Of a stretch of 5,768 nt of DNA, positions 117 to 5,768 are shown one piece after another (the stretch's first letter is position 1; the number at the start of each line of letters is the position of its first letter). Source of the stretch: Eubacteriales bacterium (lineage in GTDB: Bacteria > Bacillota_A > Clostridia > Christensenellales > Aristaeellaceae). The stretch lies in NCBI GenBank assembly GCA_028692205.1, contig JAQUXV010000187.1:1-5768 (forward strand), in the 5' to 3' direction. Position numbers and translations under genes: made by a program. The notes under the pieces are model-generated. The model was not told the DNA's origin and searched no databases. It worked only from the letters and a program-made list of their open reading frames with translations.

Positions 117-431
117 AAACGACACTCCTTTTTACGGTTTTTCTGCCGTTATTATACCCTGCCATGCGCGTTCCGTAAAGGGAACCCGGCGAAAACAGCG
201 CTTTTTCATAACGCTCATCTGCATCATTCTGCCGGACGGCAGCAGCGGCAGCAGCGGTGCCTGCGACAGTATCGCCGGTATTATCTTTCATATTGGAAAA
301 TACGTCTTCATCTCCATCCGAATCCGCATCCCCGCCAAACAAGCTTTAACGCTTGCCCTGCCATGGGCGCAGCAAAAGCAGTCGTTCCCCCGCACGCTCC
401 ACAACGTGATCCCGCACAAACCGCCGGTCGC
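117..431. other. Intergenic region between operon terminator and alcohol dehydrogenase
   Basis: Apart from the promoter and ribosome binding site described separately, I see no supportable gene here. A TTG-initiated minus-strand frame (342 to 109) exists, but it has no Shine-Dalgarno sequence, a run of six alanines from a GCAGC-type repeat near 239-258, and it overlaps the alcohol dehydrogenase start. Plus-strand frames through this stretch run against the alcohol dehydrogenase and have no ribosome binding site. Small dyads (for example GCCC/GGGC at 355-368) are too weak to name. Confidence 0.5.
151..179 (-). promoter_or_regulatory. Sigma-70-type promoter of the alcohol dehydrogenase gene
   Basis: On the minus strand there is a perfect -10 TATAAT (156 to 151), a 17-base spacer, and a -35 TTTACG (179 to 174; 4 of 6 consensus). 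Transcription would start near 144-145, giving a leader of about 28 bases before the ATG at 116, with the ribosome binding site inside it. Spacing, a perfect -10 and correct placement before a gene make this the best promoter in the window. I saw no clear Rex-type operator around it. Confidence 0.72.
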
Positions 432-471
432 AAAAACCCCGTCCGCGTCAAATGACGCGAACGGGGTTTTG
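432..471 (-). terminator. Rho-independent terminator of the decarboxylase operon
   Basis: An almost perfect hairpin: AAAACCCCGT (433-442) pairs with ACGGGGTTTT (461-470), one C/A mismatch follows (443/460), and CGCGTC (444-449) pairs with GACGCG (454-459) around an AAAT loop. In the minus-strand transcript the stem ends in a U-run (436 to 432). It begins about 22 bases after the stop codon of the last operon gene. The T-run on the other arm (467-470) means it could also work for plus-strand transcripts, although no plus-strand gene is seen. Confidence 0.92.
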
Positions 472-492
472 TAACCTTATCCAGTCGATATA

Positions 493-1893
493 TTACACCG
501 GCATGGTTTTCTGTTCTTTGTCCAGCATGGTGCTGTCCACGCCAAGCTGCTTGGCCTGACGATACTGGAAGAACTTCAGCGCCACCTGCGGGAAGAGCGC
601 ATAGCTGAGCACGTCTTCTTCCTGCTGATAGTAATCGCGGATTTCTTCGCGGTACTTGTCCAGTTCCGGCGGGATATCGTCGGCGGGGCGGTGAGTAATC
701 ACCGTTTCATCCCCGATAACCTTCTTGCGCACCGCTTCGTCCACAGGCGCGGGCAGGCGGCCGTATTCGCCGCGCAACAGCGCTTTGGATTCTTTGGTGA
801 CCATCTTGTAGCGTTCGCCGCCGAGAATATTCATCACGGCCTGCGTGCCCACAATCTGGCTTGTCGGGGTAACCAGCGGCGGATAGCCGAAGTCTTTGCG
901 CACACGCGGCACTTCCGCAAGCACGTCGTAATACTTGTCCATCGCGTTGGCCTGTTTCAGCTGACCGATCAGGTTGCTCAGCATTCCGCCGGGCACCTGA
1001 TAGAGCAGGGTGTTCACGTCGGTCGCCAGCACGCGGGCGGGATCGCGCCAGCCCTCTTTGGTCAGTTCCGCCGCAACGCCGCGGAAGTGGCTGGCCAGAT
1101 CGACCAGCAGCTTCAGGTCGATGCCAGTATCGAACTCGGTGCCGCGCAGCGTCGCAACCATTGCTTCCGTCGGGGGCTGCGAGGTGCCGCCGCCCAGCGG
1201 GGAGAGCGCGGTGTCGATCACGTCTACGCCCGCTTCCACAGCCTTCAGCAGCGTCATAGCGCCGGTGCCGGTGGTGTCGTGCGTGTGCAGTACGATCGGC
1301 AAATTGGTTTCCGCTTTCAGGCGTTTCACCAGGCTATATGCGGAGTACGGCAGAAGCAGGTTCGCCATATCCTTGATGCAGATGATGTCCGCGCCCATTT
1401 CGGCGATTTCCCCAGCCAGTTTCACGAAGTAATCCTCCGTGTGAACGGGGCTGATGGTGTAGCTCATGGCCACTTCCGCGGTGCCGCCGTATTTCTTGGT
1501 GGCTTTCACGGCTGTTTCCATGTTGCGCAGGTCGTTAAGCGCGTCGAAGCAGCGGATGATATCAATGCCGTTTTCGATGGTCTTCTTGACGAAGAAATCC
1601 ACAACGTCGTCCGCATAATGCTTGTAGCCCAGAATATTCTGGCCGCGAAGCAGCATCTGCAGTTTGGTATCGGGAATACCCTTGCGGATCGTGCGCAGGC
1701 GCTCCCAGGGATCTTCGTTCAGGAAGCGCAGGCAGCTGTCGAACGTAGCGCCGCCCCAGCACTCCAGCGAAAAATAACCGGCCTTGTTCAGTTTTTCAAA
1801 CGCGGGTTCCATTTGCGAAATCCGCATACGCGTCGCGGCCTGGCTTTGATGCGCGTCGCGTAAAATGGTATCGGTAATTCCGACCTTGGCCAT
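493..1893 (-). CDS. oadA: Oxaloacetate decarboxylase alpha subunit / transcarboxylase 5S-type carboxyltransferase (no biotin domain)
   Basis: A 466-residue cytoplasmic enzyme that moves a carboxyl group between oxaloacetate (or pyruvate) and carboxybiotin. An HMGL-like TIM barrel fills roughly residues 1-290, followed by the conserved pyruvate carboxylase/OadA domain (about 290-440, including VRKDFGYPPLVTPTSQIVGT). Active-site residues are visible: LRDAHQS with Asp13, the barrel lysine in ICIKDMANL (Lys174) and the metal-binding histidines of LHTHDTTG (His203, His205). They match Asp17, Lys178, His207 and His209 of Klebsiella OadA with a constant offset. The protein stops where Klebsiella OadA (about 600 residues) continues into a biotin domain; that domain is the separate carrier gene upstream, as in the split 5S subunit of Propionibacterium transcarboxylase. 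The ATG at 1893 is preferred over an in-frame TTG at 1911 because AAAGGAG lies between them. It is the last operon gene, 49 bases after the beta subunit. Pyruvate versus oxaloacetate preference cannot be told. Confidence 0.93.
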   Translation of the reverse strand: MAKVGITDTILRDAHQSQAATRMRISQMEPAFEKLNKAGYFSLECWGGATFDSCLRFLNEDPWERLRTIRKGIPDTKLQMLLRGQNILGYKHYADDVVDFFVKKTIENGIDIIRCFDALNDLRNMETAVKATKKYGGTAEVAMSYTISPVHTEDYFVKLAGEIAEMGADIICIKDMANLLLPYSAYSLVKRLKAETNLPIVLHTHDTTGTGAMTLLKAVEAGVDVIDTALSPLGGGTSQPPTEAMVATLRGTEFDTGIDLKLLVDLASHFRGVAAELTKEGWRDPARVLATDVNTLLYQVPGGMLSNLIGQLKQANAMDKYYDVLAEVPRVRKDFGYPPLVTPTSQIVGTQAVMNILGGERYKMVTKESKALLRGEYGRLPAPVDEAVRKKVIGDETVITHRPADDIPPELDKYREEIRDYYQQEEDVLSYALFPQVALKFFQYRQAKQLGVDSTMLDKEQKTMPV

Positions 1894-1901
1894 ATTAGGT
1901 T

Positions 1902-1908
1902 CTCCTTT
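1902..1908 (-). promoter_or_regulatory. Shine-Dalgarno sequence that fixes the oadA start
   Basis: AAAGGAG on the minus strand, 8 bases before the ATG at 1893. It overlaps the coding part of a longer reading frame that begins with TTG at 1911, so that longer start is unlikely: it would put the ribosome binding site inside the gene and adds six residues (MKGEPN) not expected for this family. Confidence 0.88.
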
Positions 1909-1917
1909 CAAACGTCG

Positions 1918-1944
1918 GGTTCCGGCAACCGGATCCGTTTTTTT
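1918..1944 (+). terminator. Intercistronic hairpin that reads as a plus-strand intrinsic terminator
   Basis: GGTTCCGG (1918-1925) pairs with CCGGATCC (1929-1936) with one T/T mismatch, around a CAA loop. On the plus strand it is followed by G and seven T (1938-1944), the form of a rho-independent terminator. The T-run includes the complement of the beta-subunit stop codon. In the minus-strand operon mRNA the same hairpin lies between the beta and oadA genes but has no following U-run, so it should not stop the operon; it may stabilise or segment the mRNA. Confidence 0.5.
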
Positions 1945-3181
1945 ACGCGCCGAACATGCTCAGCAGAATACCGGCCGCAATCGCCGAGCCGATAACACCG
2001 GCGACGTTGGGGCCCATGGCATGCATGAGCAGGAAGTTGCTCGGGTTGGCTTTCTGGCCTTCCACCTGGCTTACACGCGCCGCCATCGGCACTGCGGATA
2101 CGCCAGCGGAGCCAATCAGCGGGTTGATCTTGCCGCCGGTCAGCTTGTTCATCAGCTTGGCAAGCAGCACGCCGCCCGCGGTGCCGCAGCTGAACGCGAC
2201 GATGCCCAGCACCAGAATGCCCAGCGTTTTTAAGTTCAGGAAGGTTTCCGCATTGGCCGTAGCGCCGACCGTTACGCCCAGGAAAATCACGACGATGTTG
2301 TTCAGTTCGTTCTGCGAGGTCTTGTTCAACCGGTCCACAACGCCGCTTTCCCTAAACAGGTTGCCCAGCATCAGCATACCGATCAACGGAGCCGCGGAGG
2401 GCAGCAGAAGGCTGACGATAATGGTAACGGCGATCGGGAACACGATCTTCTCACGCTTGCTCACGGGGCGAAGCTGCTCCATAACGATCTCGCGTTCTTT
2501 CCGGGTGGTCAGCGCGCGCATAATGGGCGGCTGGATCACCGGCACAAGCGCCATGTAGCTGTATGCGGCAACGGCAATGGGGCCCAGCAGATGGGGCGCC
2601 AGTTTACCGGTGAGGTAGATGGCCGTGGGGCCGTCCGCGCCGCCGATAATGCCGATGGAGCTGCTCTCGGCTACCGTAAAGCCCAGCAGCTGCGCGCCGA
2701 TGAAGGTAACGAAAATACCAAGCTGCGCGGCCGCGCCCAGCAACAGGCTTTTGGGATTTGCGATCAGGGGACCGAAGTCGGTCATCGCGCCCACGCCGAG
2801 GAAGATCAGCGGCGGGTAGATGCCCAGTTTAACACCCTGATAGAGGTAATACAGCAGGCCGCCGGTTTGCCTGATATACTGGTAGACCGTCGATCCGTCC
2901 GTCAGTACGACAGGGACGCCGCTCTTGCCCGCATGCACTGCTTCGTTAAAATACTCGTAGGTCGGGCCGTCCATCAAACCGGCGAACGGCAGGTTGGCCA
3001 GCAGCATGCCGAATGCGATGGGCAGCAGGAGCAGGGGTTCGTATTTTTTCACGATCGCCAGATAGATCAGCAGGCAGGCGATCACGATCATAATCAGGTT
3101 CAGCGGCGTGTTCAACAGCCCGGCGATACCGGATGATTGAGCCAGCTTGGCTAAACTTTCGCCAACATTGATACTTTCCAT
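1943..3181 (-). CDS. oadB: Sodium-translocating decarboxylase beta subunit (OadB/MmdB/GcdB family)
   Basis: A 412-residue polytopic membrane protein that decarboxylates carboxybiotin and exports Na+. It carries the family signatures: [12 protein letters not shown] (47-58), [11 protein letters not shown] (129-139), [14 protein letters not shown] (177-190), [15 protein letters not shown] (207-221), SKREK (241-245), [18 protein letters not shown] (353-370) and the C-terminal [17 protein letters not shown]. Every residue implicated in Na+ or proton handling in Klebsiella OadB is present at a constant offset of 20: Asp183, Tyr209, Asn353, Gly357, Ser362 and Arg369 (Klebsiella 203, 229, 373, 377, 382, 389). 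The pump therefore looks functional. The loop after the second membrane segment (about 66-106) is longer than in the short MmdB/GcdB proteins and shorter than in Klebsiella OadB; this region varies in the family. The ATG at 3181 is the first start after an in-frame TGA at the ribosome binding site. The substrate is set by the partner carboxyltransferase, so oadB and mmdB are equally fair names. Confidence 0.95.
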
Positions 3182-3194
3182 GGTCGACCATCAA

Positions 3195-3201
3195 CTCCTT
3201 T
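3195..3201 (-). promoter_or_regulatory. Shine-Dalgarno sequence of the beta subunit, unusually far from its start
   Basis: AAAGGAG on the minus strand is followed by 13 bases before the ATG at 3181, longer than the usual 5-10. An out-of-frame TTG (3194) and ATG (3191) lie in between. A 12-base perfect palindrome ATGGTCGACCAT (3180-3191) joins the decoy ATG and the true start, so both could be held in a small stem or compete for the ribosome. Confidence 0.6.
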
Positions 3202-3229
3202 GTCTATTTCTCGTTGGAGCGCGACGGCC

Positions 3230-3610
3230 TCAACCGATCACGACCATCACGTCACCGCTGTTGACGGAGGCGCCTTTGATCACGTTGACTTGCTTCACGG
3301 TGCCATCACCGGGGGCGACGATTTCGTTTTCCATCTTCATGGCTTCCAGAATCAGCAGCACGTCGCCTTTTTTAATGGCGTCGCCCACTTTGCACCGAAT
3401 ATCCAAAATGGTGCCGGGCATCGGAGAGCTGATTTTAACGCCTTCCGCAACGGGCGCGGCGGCGGGTTTGGCGGCAGGGGCCGCGGGGGCGGCGACAGGC
3501 GCGGCGGCAACAGGGGCCGGCGCGGCAACGGGAGCGGGCGCACCGGCGCCGACTTCCTCAACGGAAACCTGATATCCAATGCCATTGACAGTAATGTTAA
3601 ACTGACGCAT
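3230..3610 (-). CDS. Biotin carboxyl carrier protein of the decarboxylase (MmdC / 1.3S type)
   Basis: A 126-residue protein in three parts. There is a short N-terminal stretch (1-20, MRQFNITVNG...); an Ala/Pro-rich flexible linker (about 21-56) with repeated APAPVA and AAPVAAP units; and a biotinyl domain (about 57-126). The biotin site is EAMKMEN, with Lys92 the predicted biotinylated residue, 34 residues from the C-terminus, the normal spacing. The carrier shuttles CO2 from the carboxyltransferase to the beta subunit in the membrane. The linker is expected to give the reach needed to visit several active sites. It is the only biotin domain in the window, so it must serve both the mmdA-like and oadA-like enzymes if both belong to this system. 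The start is certain: a full AAGGAGGT (3619-3626) stands 8 bases before the ATG. The gene is equivalent to mmdC by position and size. A lipoyl domain is excluded by the AMKM motif. Confidence 0.95.
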   Translation of the reverse strand: MRQFNITVNGIGYQVSVEEVGAGAPAPVAAPAPVAAAPVAAPAAPAAKPAAAPVAEGVKISSPMPGTILDIRCKVGDAIKKGDVLLILEAMKMENEIVAPGDGTVKQVNVIKGASVNSGDVMVVIG

Positions 3611-3618
3611 AAGGGGTT

Positions 3619-3626
3619 ACCTCCTT
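3619..3626 (-). promoter_or_regulatory. Full-consensus Shine-Dalgarno sequence of the biotin carrier gene
   Basis: AAGGAGGT, the complete anti-16S complement, 8 bases before the ATG at 3610. It is the strongest ribosome binding site in the operon; the other genes have AAAGGAG or AAGGAAGGG types. It would suit high translation of a carrier shared among several enzymes. Confidence 0.85.
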
Positions 3627-3660
3627 GTTTTGCTTGTAATACGAACGTTTCATGATTTTC

Positions 3661-3687
3661 GGCCAAATCGCCTGCAGCGGCGCGGCC
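3661..3687 (-). other. Intercistronic hairpin between the anchor and biotin carrier genes
   Basis: In the minus-strand transcript GGCC (3687-3684) and CGCC (3682-3679) pair with GGCG (3672-3669) and GGCC (3664-3661). The loop is GCUGCA, with an asymmetric internal loop of G against AUUU between the two stem parts. No U-run follows, so it is not a terminator. It lies in the longest gap inside the operon (89 bases) and upstream of the carrier's strong ribosome binding site. A role in mRNA processing or protection is possible. Confidence 0.35.
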
Positions 3688-3699
3688 TTTCGAAACAGC

Positions 3700-4047
3700 C
3701 TACATCCGGCTGTATACCTGATCCTCACGGCCGGCGACGTTCCACGCGGCGGCGTTATGCACGCGGCGCACACGGCGAACGACAAACCCGGTGTCGCCCT
3801 CCCAAACCGCGGCAATGGCGGCGGTGATGGCGGCAATGGTTTCGGGTGCGATACCCTGCGGAATCTCCGCGATAGGCGCGGCCTCAACAGCCTTCTCCAC
3901 CGGTGCGGTGGGCGCGGCCTGTTTCGCCTTGCGCTGCGTGGATGCCAGCGTAATCAGCTTAACGCAACCGATCAGCAGCACCAGACCCGCGAAAACAACC
4001 ATAATGCCGATCGCAGCCACGGAAAGGCCGAACAGTAGTTTACTCAT
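3700..4047 (-). CDS. oadG: OadG/MmdD-family gamma/delta subunit (membrane anchor)
   Basis: A 115-residue protein with one N-terminal membrane segment (about residues 4-33), a basic stretch (TQRKAKQ, 37-43), an Ala/Pro-rich linker (about 44-66), and a conserved C-terminal tail. In the tail TGFVVRRVRRV (86-96) is followed by AAAWNVAGREDQVYSRM. This tail is the OadG/MmdD signature, known to assemble the carboxyltransferase with the membrane beta subunit. The length agrees with MmdD of Veillonella and is longer than Klebsiella OadG. I do not see the histidine-rich metal-binding C-terminus of Klebsiella OadG. The start ATG follows an AAGGAAGGG site 6 bases upstream, and the gene begins 21 bases after the carboxyltransferase stop, so the two are probably co-translated and co-assembled. 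Confidence 0.9.
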   Translation of the reverse strand: MSKLLFGLSVAAIGIMVVFAGLVLLIGCVKLITLASTQRKAKQAAPTAPVEKAVEAAPIAEIPQGIAPETIAAITAAIAAVWEGDTGFVVRRVRRVHNAAAWNVAGREDQVYSRM

Positions 4048-4068
4048 CGTTTACCCTTCCTTTCGCGT

Positions 4069-5544
4069 TTACAGCGGCATGTTGCCGTGCTTTTTAGCGG
4101 GATTGCTGTCCCGTTTGCTGATCAGCATTTCCAGCGCGGCCGCCAGCAGCTTGCGCGTCTGGGCGGGGTCGATCACGTCGTCTACCAGACCGGCTTTGGC
4201 GGCGTTGAGCGCGCCGGCCACGTTTTCAATATATTCGCCCGCATACTTGGCGCGCGCCTCATCGGGCGAAAGCTCTTTGCTCGCCTTCACCTCGTCGGCG
4301 TACAAAACGGCAACAGCCGCTTCCGGCGTGAGCGCGCTTACAACCGCGCCGGGCCATGCGTAGGCAACGTCCGCGTTCGCCTTGCCGCCCATGGCGACGT
4401 AGGCCTGGCCGATCGCGCTGCCGGTAATCACGCACAGCTTGGGCACGGTAGCCGTAGCGTAGGCGTATAACAGCTGGCTCTGCGCGTTCATCAGCCAGCT
4501 CTGGTTATCCAGCTTATCCACCGCCACACCCTGTGTGTTGATCAGGCTGACAACGGGGAGGTTGAAGCAATCCATAAAATGTACAAACCGGGCGGCCTTT
4601 TGCAGCGCACCGGCCGTGAGCGTACCGGCTTCGGTAGCCACAACGCCGACCGAACGGCCTGCAATGCGGCCCATAGCGGTATGCACACCGGTTTCATAGC
4701 CGGCTTTCAGCTCCATCATCGTTCCGGCGTCCAGCAACTGGCCCAGCAGGCCCTTCACGTCCGACGCATCCAGCGCGGGCAGCAGGCGGTTCATATCGTC
4801 GCCTTCCACCAGTTCCGCATCCTCGGCGTTACAGCCGGGCAGCAGCGCAAGCACTTTCTGCGTCAGCGCAAGCGCTTCGGCTTCGTCCGCGGCTACCAGC
4901 GAGCACGCGCCCTGCGCAGCCATCATTTCCGCGCCGCCAACTTTGTCGATATCCACATTGATGCCGTTCATCGCCGCAAGCACCTGCGGGCCAAAGACCA
5001 TCATGGAGCCGACTTTTTTCGCCATGATGCTTACATCCGCAAGCTGCGCAATCAGCGCCGCGCCGCCGATGCAGGGGCCCAGCACTACCGCGACCATCGG
5101 GCAAACGCCGCTCAGGCGCGCCATGTTGCGGTAGATTTCAGCATAGGCGTTCATCGCCTCCGCACCTTCGTCGATGCGCACGCCGGCGCTGTCGCAAAGG
5201 GCAATCACGGGCGCGCCCGTTTTCAACGCCATATCCAGCGTTTTGTTGATTTTCTGGGCCTGCAGCTTGCCCATCGCGCCTCCATGGACGGTAAAATCCT
5301 GCGCAAAAAGGTAAACCGGCCGTTCCTGAATGGTTGCGTATCCGGTTACTACCCCGGCCGCATCGCCGTTTTCGCTGACCAGCGCAAACAGCTCCACAAA
5401 GCTGCCCGCATCCACGAGTTTTTCAATGCGCTCGCGTGCCGTTAGCTTTCCGGCGTCCCGCTGTGCCTTGAGGCGCTTTTCATCGCCCTTGTTCAGAGCT
5501 TCGCGCAGCGCCTCCACCTTGGTGAGGTCTTGAGAGTTCTGCAT
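4069..5544 (-). CDS. mmdA: Acyl-CoA carboxyltransferase, methylmalonyl-CoA decarboxylase alpha / transcarboxylase 12S type
   Basis: A 491-residue enzyme of the carboxyltransferase branch of the crotonase superfamily, with two homologous halves. The N half shows GKLTARERIEKLVDAGSF (32-49), DFTVHGGAMGKLQAQKI (83-99), CDSAGVRIDEG (117-127) and the oxyanion-type GPCIGGAA (156-163). The C half shows GYETGVHTAMGRIAGRSVGVVA (282-303), TAGALQKAARFVHFMDCFNLPVV (310-332) and GQAYVAMGGK (379-388). It ends in KKHGNMPL, very close to the KKHGNIPL end of MmdA/PccB proteins. The family transfers carboxyl between an acyl-CoA (methylmalonyl-, glutaconyl- or malonyl-CoA) and biotin. Several classical motifs differ: NTQGV stands where PccB has DVPGF, and ITGSAIGQAYV where it has the RKAYGGAYV type. 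The clade is therefore divergent and methylmalonyl-CoA is only the likeliest substrate. It is the first gene of the operon; AAGGAG (5552-5557) is 7 bases before the ATG. With OadG, carrier and beta subunit next to it, decarboxylase or transcarboxylase is preferred over carboxylase. Confidence 0.88.
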   Translation of the reverse strand: MQNSQDLTKVEALREALNKGDEKRLKAQRDAGKLTARERIEKLVDAGSFVELFALVSENGDAAGVVTGYATIQERPVYLFAQDFTVHGGAMGKLQAQKINKTLDMALKTGAPVIALCDSAGVRIDEGAEAMNAYAEIYRNMARLSGVCPMVAVVLGPCIGGAALIAQLADVSIMAKKVGSMMVFGPQVLAAMNGINVDIDKVGGAEMMAAQGACSLVAADEAEALALTQKVLALLPGCNAEDAELVEGDDMNRLLPALDASDVKGLLGQLLDAGTMMELKAGYETGVHTAMGRIAGRSVGVVATEAGTLTAGALQKAARFVHFMDCFNLPVVSLINTQGVAVDKLDNQSWLMNAQSQLLYAYATATVPKLCVITGSAIGQAYVAMGGKANADVAYAWPGAVVSALTPEAAVAVLYADEVKASKELSPDEARAKYAGEYIENVAGALNAAKAGLVDDVIDPAQTRKLLAAALEMLISKRDSNPAKKHGNMPL

Positions 5545-5689
5545 TTCCGTTCTCCTTCCGTCGGGTTCGATCCTGTTTATCTGGGATATTGAAAAAGCTC
5601 AATTCTTTCCCGTTTCAATCTGTTCTCGTACTACCTCCTCTTTTCCTGCCTGACCGTTAGAAATTTGACAATTTTCTTCGTTTTTTTCA

Positions 5690-5705
5690 TGTACTTGTCC
5701 GTACA
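5690..5705. promoter_or_regulatory. Second small dyad upstream of the operon
   Basis: TGTAC-TTGTCC-GTACA, perfect 5-base arms with a 6-base centre, starting 12 bases from the other dyad. It could be an operator half of the same control region or a small RNA stem. The arms are short enough to arise by chance. Confidence 0.18.
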
Positions 5706-5716
5706 GGCCGGAACCG

Positions 5717-5735
5717 TTACCATACGATATGGCAA
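5717..5735. promoter_or_regulatory. Operator-like dyad upstream of the operon
   Basis: TTACCATACGATATGGCAA: two 8-base arms matching at 7 of 8 positions around CGA, with a perfect core CCATA-CGA-TATGG (5720-5732). The length and symmetry suit a dimeric repressor, and it covers the -10 of the weak promoter candidate. No regulator gene is in the window to pair with it. Confidence 0.25.
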
Positions 5736-5747
5736 TCCGTTTGCTAA
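5719..5747 (-). promoter_or_regulatory. Weak promoter candidate for the decarboxylase operon
   Basis: On the minus strand TTAGCA (5747 to 5742, 4 of 6 for -35), a 17-base spacer and TATGGT (5724 to 5719, 4 of 6 for -10). If used, the leader would be about 165 bases. A dyad overlaps the -10. No better pair was found between here and 5544, but such matches occur by chance, and this site would fall inside a gene if the edge-open frame is coding. Confidence 0.22.
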
Positions 5748-5768
5748 CCTCTCCGCCTCTATCGCGCG

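Follow-up and report, generated by a model that had tools for sequence, protein, structure and literature searches.

A widespread clostridial five-gene operon for a putative oxaloacetate decarboxylase sodium pump with a diverged acyl-CoA carboxyltransferase

The operon and its products

The DNA analysed here, a stretch of 5,768 nucleotides from contig JAQUXV010000187.1 of the Eubacteriales assembly GCA_028692205.1 (hereafter the window), carries on its minus strand, at positions 493..5544, five intact genes which family searches identify, in operon order and with intergenic gaps of 21, 89, 48 and 31 nt, as those for an acyl-CoA carboxyltransferase (CT), OadG, a biotin carrier, OadB and OadA. 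This agrees with what had been proposed from the letters alone (the sequence-only reading), namely that two carboxyltransferases, one OadG, one carrier and one intact pump lie in one operon, and since the search for the same order elsewhere, which that reading had called for, returned 49 other fetched loci, the operon is not a chance assembly. The CT (4069..5544, 491 aa) is a divergent member of the MmdA/12S/PccB superfamily (PF01039, 341.7 bits) and is followed by an OadG/MmdD-like membrane anchor subunit (3700..4047, 115 aa), which scores 48.8 bits on PF04277 (cut-off 27) and 29.2 on TIGR01195, under the cut-off of 36.05. The biotin carboxyl carrier protein (3230..3610, 126 aa; PF00364, 70.5 bits) has its biotin lysine, K92, in the motif EAMKMEN, and on the MmdC/MmdD equivalogs NF047903/NF047902 carrier and anchor are below the cut-offs (122.5 of 200 and 27 of 150). 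OadB (1943..3181, 412 aa), the carboxybiotin decarboxylase and Na+ pump subunit, scores 552 bits on PF03977 and 520.7 on TIGR01109 (cut-off 190.6), and retains the equivalents, as mapped on the Salmonella protein, of Glu40, Asp203, Arg304, Asn311, Ser382 and Asn412, residues which a passage of a Salmonella OadB study calls essential (PMC7274780). The last gene (493..1911) encodes a predicted oxaloacetate-pyruvate carboxyltransferase of the OadA/5S type (NF008985, 736 bits, cut-off 718), which has HMGL-like and PYC_OADA domains and was correctly described beforehand as lacking a biotin domain; it is under the cut-off both of TIGR01108, the equivalog with a fused biotin domain (667.9, cut-off 756.5), the carrier here being a separate protein, and of the 5S equivalog NF008984 (546.9, cut-off 827). 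OadA measures 472 aa from a TTG at 1911 or 466 aa from an ATG at 1893, the latter being the likelier start, preceded by AAAGGAG at 8 bases, and the motifs RDAHQS, IKDMA, LHTHDTTG and PTSQ are present.

A scan of species genomes gave seven loci in six genomes of near relatives (G001 to G006), on which statements at genome level about the window rest. The five-gene order is complete in L001, L002 and L004, while a contig end cuts OadA in L005 and both CT and OadA in L007. In five of the six relatives (G001 to G004 and G006) the other small, strong PF00364 match sits with acc or fab genes, and larger open reading frames of 432 and 439 aa in G004 and G006 also match this family; no other small strong match to it was found in the genome of G005. 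As the other small carriers of the near relatives sit in the fab/acc cluster, no carrier dedicated to the CT was seen. The sequence-only reading had held that a separate carrier and pump elsewhere would count against it, and a second OadB does lie away from the operon in four of the six relatives, at L030 (G002), L031 (G003), L032 (G006) and L033/L034 (G004). At L030 a GNAT gene, a Usp-like gene and a short OadG-like open reading frame (24.2 bits, just under the Pfam cut-off) adjoin it, and neither a carrier nor a carboxyltransferase lies within the 4.1 kb examined. If active, the second OadB of L030 would have to borrow a biotin carrier. OadG-like open reading frames of 71-73 aa follow the second OadB in L030 to L032 and L034, of which that of L030 alone was scored. 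For the window operon, a carrier shared between both carboxyltransferases and an intact pump is the best reading of the predicted gene content.

Distribution of the gene order and divergence of the carboxyltransferase

In a class-wide sample of 291 genomes a CT match at E 1e-60 or better turned up in 173, and 86 loci were annotated, made up of 80 fetched loci, five near-relative loci and the window; the search was seeded on the CT, such that loci without it cannot appear, and the weakest CT matches lie outside the sample. The order CT-OadG-carrier-OadB-OadA is present in 50 of the 86 loci, the window included, whilst 24 combine CT, carrier and OadA but lack OadB (eight of these with a small OadG-like gene), nine have CT-OadG-carrier-OadB without OadA (among them L109, which stops 219 bases past OadB, so that an OadA may be unseen) and three are partial. 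The five-gene set is thus widespread in Clostridia and not particular to the window, and the combination of one carrier with an intact pump, which the sequence-only reading had marked for study, stands as a description but not as a distinction. The nearest CT homologue with a source name, among the matches listed, is from Candidatus Limiplasma, a genus of Clostridia. On a midpoint-rooted FastTree phylogeny of the CT, parsimony over 81 scored loci requires six state changes for OadB and two for OadA (shuffled means 20.9 and 7.8); this difference indicates that CT and OadA belong together, and CT, carrier and OadA form the more stable core, with the pump more optional, except in the branch linked to methylmalonyl-CoA mutase and in L134.

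The same tree contains a sister clade (support 0.993) of CTs of about 516 aa, with 25 five-gene and 20 pumpless loci and with the mutase-linked loci nested in it, and the window CT falls outside this clade together with 23 other five-gene loci, four pumpless loci and L134. On the mmdA equivalog TIGR01117 four sister-clade CTs score 890-984 and seven outside it, the window (397 bits) included, score 397-638, all under the cut-off of 998.8, which is so strict that a CT whose genome carries the mutase falls short of it, at 984. The assignment of the CT to the MmdA/12S type is therefore sound as far as the superfamily goes and fails for the mmdA equivalog, and because 397 bits is far below even a strict cut-off, a methylmalonyl-CoA-specific label is not justified for the window CT. 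Its signature is altered, with GQAY in place of GGAY. Residue 383, which by alignment to the D422V structure 3iav would be the counterpart of the Asp422 specificity position of Streptomyces PccB, is V in the window, mostly I in the sister clade (V in L072, L in L069) and L in eight of nine mutase-linked CTs.

At an OadA identity of 62-68% the mean CT identity is 0.70 between five-gene loci inside the clade, 0.65 between pumpless loci inside it, and 0.40 between five-gene loci outside. The ratio of nonsynonymous to synonymous substitution rates (dN/dS) in close pairs, obtained by simple counting at a dS of about 0.6-1.3, is 0.05-0.15 for the CT, 0.07-0.13 for OadB and 0.07-0.17 for OadA, the OadA value of L007 coming from a contig end. 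Residues G156, P157, G160, G379, Q380, Y382 and D392 are invariant in the best 120 of 1140 CT homologues, the window among them, and the predicted CT structure has the acyl-CoA carboxyltransferase fold, albeit the model does not tell the substrate. The CT has diverged much faster than OadA and OadB, under purifying selection and with a changed, conserved active-site signature. Decay of the CT was considered and rejected on account of this purifying selection and of the conserved motifs. Owing to the low dN/dS, the invariant positions and the fold, we take the CT to be a functional enzyme whose substrate has shifted.

A different use of the CT has to be weighed against the same data, in which it carries out no important carboxyl transfer and forms a hexameric assembly core for OadA and the carrier, the complex being an oxaloacetate-driven Na+ pump. 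The conservation of OadA and OadB beside a diverged CT would suit such a role, and the title of structure 1on3 terms the 12S hexamer a multienzyme core; however, the glycine positions, Gln380, Tyr382 and Asp392 would hardly be expected to stay invariant, nor dN/dS to stay so low, and four of the 29 tree loci outside the sister clade have no pump and keep CT, carrier and OadA (in one of the four, G223, the CT match has an in-frame stop), such that we consider this role unlikely.

Candidate acyl-CoA partners

The sequence-only reading had proposed a membrane-bound methylmalonyl-CoA:pyruvate transcarboxylase with a Na+ vent, to which the superfamily of the CT and the 5S-like OadA lend themselves, as does an operon of Geobacter bemidjiensis, assigned to propionate use, in which CT and 5S-like genes stand with hypothetical and biotin-domain ones (PMC2996986). 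Methylmalonyl-CoA mutase (PF01642) was, however, found in none of the six near relatives and in none of the 73 genomes with CT and OadA together in the operon (68 further genomes and five near relatives). It was found in nine of 79 further genomes, and these nine fall among the ten in which no OadA is seen in the CT operon (L109 and the carrier-ended L096 counted in); the genome with the truncated locus L094 gave no match. In seven of the nine mutase genomes no more than about 2.2 kb separates the mutase from the examined CT, whose operon shows no OadA; in G161 the mutase is beside the other CT copy and in G138 on another contig. The CTs of mutase genomes have YLAMC (8/9) or YIAMC (1/9), near the 12S YLAMCNRDLGAD, as against YVAMGGKA-NAD in the window, and YIAMC occurs also in one five-gene CT, L097. 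A passage on isolate BL-4 likewise describes a CT-carrier-OadA cluster without a mutase (PMC7764203). The methylmalonyl-CoA reading was rejected, as the mutase was not found in the CT and OadA genomes; methylmalonyl-CoA or propionyl-CoA is probably not the substrate of the CT, and the transcarboxylase as first proposed is highly improbable. Six genomes (G060, G115, G138, G161, G184 and G205, with loci L093, L096, L120, L111, L102 and L105) have the mutase, an OadA-less CT operon and FabD and gave no match to PF02785, the biotin carboxylase family. CTs of the kind found in the five-gene operon carry methylmalonyl-CoA enzyme names in some database records.

Another reading, in which the CT would take part in glutamate fermentation by decarboxylating glutaconyl-CoA, OadA being a further donor, draws on L134 (G102), whose CT-OadG-carrier-OadB operon without OadA lies in a genome with strong matches to PF06050, the family of the partner enzyme 2-hydroxyglutaryl-CoA dehydratase. 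PF06050 was found in none of the six near relatives, on which ground the glutaconyl-CoA reading was rejected, and GcdA is a weak sequence relative of the CT (73 bits), leaving this the least probable of the explanations considered, with hardly any weight. Glutaconyl- and methylcrotonyl-type chains were not among the 50 structure matches listed, which is uninformative either way. L134 itself, with an outlying CT and with no mutase found, is a possible glutaconyl-CoA decarboxylase built on a 12S-type rather than a GcdA-type subunit.

For the sister clade the genomes point to malonyl-CoA. FabD and FabF are present in all 25 of its five-gene genomes, while AccA/AccD were not found in 23 of them, the exceptions G016 and G135 being the two lowest branches of the clade and extra PF01039 pieces in G088 being read as a second CT split across two contigs; PF02785 was not found in 24 of the 25, and the sole match, that of G054, has the size of a pyruvate carboxylase. 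Genomes such as these would be expected to require malonyl-CoA, no other recognised means of making it was seen, and because FabD and FabF are present and AccA/AccD unseen in 23 of 25, the operon is the best candidate for its supply. Replacement of the usual malonyl-CoA-forming enzyme in the sister clade is a stronger story than the window's own case. There is a precedent in C. thermocellum, for which a related set has been proposed to make malonyl-CoA: this organism is without a standard acetyl-CoA carboxylase (ACC) and is modelled with a putative transcarboxylase, Clo1313_1523-1526, for malonyl-CoA (PMC5414155). In C. bescii a four-gene operon for CT, a hypothetical protein, the carrier and an oxaloacetate decarboxylase is under FapR control and is termed a malonyl-CoA unit (PMC7071700).

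Over 211 genomes with FabD, 121 have the CT only, 38 AccC only, 32 both and 20 neither (by PF02785, with no correction for kinship), and in these genomes the CT and a stand-alone biotin carboxylase show a tendency towards mutual exclusion. No recognised stand-alone biotin carboxylase was thereby found in 141 of the 211, by a family known to miss AccC. The idea that all genomes of the fetched set are without ACC was dropped: PF02785 is blank in 61 of 80, and six with such a blank (G010, G058, G093, G183, G135 and G016) have AccA/AccD by PF01039, for which reason a PF02785 blank alone is no proof that ACC is absent. The 20 genomes with neither match may have a divergent AccC or yet another route to malonyl-CoA. 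In G016 (C21:43635-44891) a single PF01039 match, which lies some 600 bases away from FabF, covers model positions 10-429 and contains an in-frame TAG; it may be an AccD-AccA fusion that is either broken or translated by readthrough.

Outside the sister clade a set of 24 five-gene genomes (the tree members minus the window, plus G006) gave a different result. FabF and AccD occur together in 15 of these (14 also with AccA), while in the other nine neither FabF nor AccA/AccD was found and the operon is retained; FabD was not found in eight of the nine, its search not having included G005. On the evidence of these nine genomes the operon persists without serving fatty acid synthesis. The joint absence recurs in five contrasts on the tree, some at nodes of modest support (G005 against the window clade, G132 and G242 against G260, G049 against G010, G144 and G094 against G093, and G204 and G023 against G183 and G058). 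Among the near relatives G001, G002, G004 and G006 have AccC and AccD with FabF, and G003 has AccC, AccD and AccA; these acc genes of the near relatives are the ground for regarding the specificity of the window-lineage CT as probably shifted. That the window CT still makes malonyl-CoA from acetyl-CoA and oxaloacetate, beside an ordinary ACC, would be in line with the operon order shared with the sister clade, with the C. thermocellum and C. bescii precedents and with residue 383, where V in the window and I in most of the sister clade differ from the L of most mutase-linked CTs. We nonetheless regard it as rather unlikely, though with more to be said for it than for the other alternatives, given that all four near relatives with FabF have AccC and AccD (G003, besides these four, having AccC, AccD and AccA), that the nine genomes keep the operon and that the CT has GQAY for GGAY.

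A proposed carboxyl hub and its known relatives

We lean towards the view that the operon encodes a Na+-translocating oxaloacetate decarboxylase with a split alpha subunit, to which a CT has been added on the same carrier. The complex would be membrane-bound, its alpha subunit being divided into OadA and the free biotin carrier, and OadA, judging from its family and motifs, would transfer the carboxyl group of oxaloacetate to biotin. The loaded carrier might then meet OadB, with release of CO2 and export of Na+, or alternatively the CT, with exchange of the carboxyl group with an acyl-CoA. In the sister clade this acyl-CoA would most likely be the malonyl-CoA/acetyl-CoA pair, replacing the ATP-dependent ACC, and in the window lineage the CT is presumably active with a specificity probably shifted to another acyl-CoA. 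A bolder form, which we put forward only tentatively, is that the five subunits act as a reversible Na+-coupled carboxyl hub, with both carboxyltransferases and the pump dealing through a single biotin. In sister-clade genomes where neither AccA/AccD nor a stand-alone AccC is recognised the hub would have replaced ACC outright and would draw on oxaloacetate or on the Na+ gradient to form malonyl-CoA, and in the window lineage its CT would have been adapted to an acyl-CoA which is the substrate of no biotin enzyme of this type known so far. Oxaloacetate decarboxylation, coupled to 2 Na+, is put at about -30 kJ/mol in PMC8473912. Should OadB be at work where the operon supplies malonyl-CoA, lipid synthesis and membrane energy would be tied together through one biotin. 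For some acetogens no ACC has been found and the route to malonyl-CoA is described as unknown in the relevant part of PMC8671834; the operon is a concrete candidate answer to this gap for part of the class.

Several points weigh against the favoured interpretation. That both enzymes load the one carrier is something we infer; the 120 homologues in which the active-site residues are invariant are 68-100% identical, making invariance a shallow test; and lineage rate could partly account for the faster change of the CT. The failure of PF02785 to detect AccC in genomes with AccA/AccD weakens the table of CT against AccC. Because fab and acc genes frequently sit on the same contig, the two would disappear together if that contig were missing, and the completeness of the compared genomes, many of which are probably metagenome-assembled, is unlisted; assembly gaps alone are nevertheless unlikely to explain the joint absence of FabF and AccA/AccD in 9 of 24 outside genomes as compared to 0 of 25 in the sister clade (Fisher p 6e-4, with no kinship correction). 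Regulation gives no help either: with an assumed FapR consensus (matches of up to 3 mismatches counted) and a FabT-like motif allowed 1 mismatch, the five-gene operons showed no FapR-like box except in L071 (3 mismatches, near the CT start; shuffles give similar) and one FabT-like match only, in L107, and palindrome scans at these operons gave no lead.

FapR-like palindromes with 1-3 mismatches do lie upstream of the pumpless CT operons L117, L116, L118, L095 and L115, that is 5 of the 20 pumpless loci of the sister clade, where about 1 is expected from shuffles. In the window, the leader 5' of the CT (5545..5768, minus strand), with GGAAGGAG ahead of the ATG, has no FapR-like match at up to 3 mismatches and no FabT-like match. 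The operon ends at an intrinsic terminator (425..485, minus strand; fold -36.2 kcal/mol, z -7.42, 0 of 200 shuffles equally stable), beyond which positions 3-116 of the minus strand encode the first 38 residues of a gene that by eye resembles an iron-containing alcohol dehydrogenase. The open reading frames upstream of the operon in L001, L002 and L004 are, by eye, PurC-like and CapD-like and offer no metabolic hint.

None of the literature passages and listings examined describes the five genes, OadB included, as a system for malonyl-CoA or as a hybrid, and the operon shares parts with four known ones. With the OadGAB of Klebsiella and Salmonella it has in common the carboxyltransferase domain of OadA, an OadB with the named essential residues and OadG, however its biotin domain is a separate protein and an extra acyl-CoA carboxyltransferase lies in the operon. 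The Mmd of Veillonella is similar in CT, small anchor, separate carrier and OadB-like pump; the window adds OadA, no mutase was found in its six near relatives, and its CT, carrier and anchor are far under the Mmd cut-offs. The 12S/5S/1.3S enzyme of Propionibacterium likewise combines an acyl-CoA CT, a pyruvate/oxaloacetate CT and a free biotin carrier, to which the window adds the pump subunits OadB and OadG, with an OadA under the 5S equivalog cut-off. In gene order it resembles the clostridial malonyl-CoA operon, which in the table of C. bescii genes B5X54_RS07175-07190 runs CT, small protein, carrier and OadA (an excerpted table of PMC7071700); unlike those four genes of C. bescii and C. 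thermocellum, as the excerpts present them, the window has OadB and a diverged CT, and its near relatives carry acc genes of their own.

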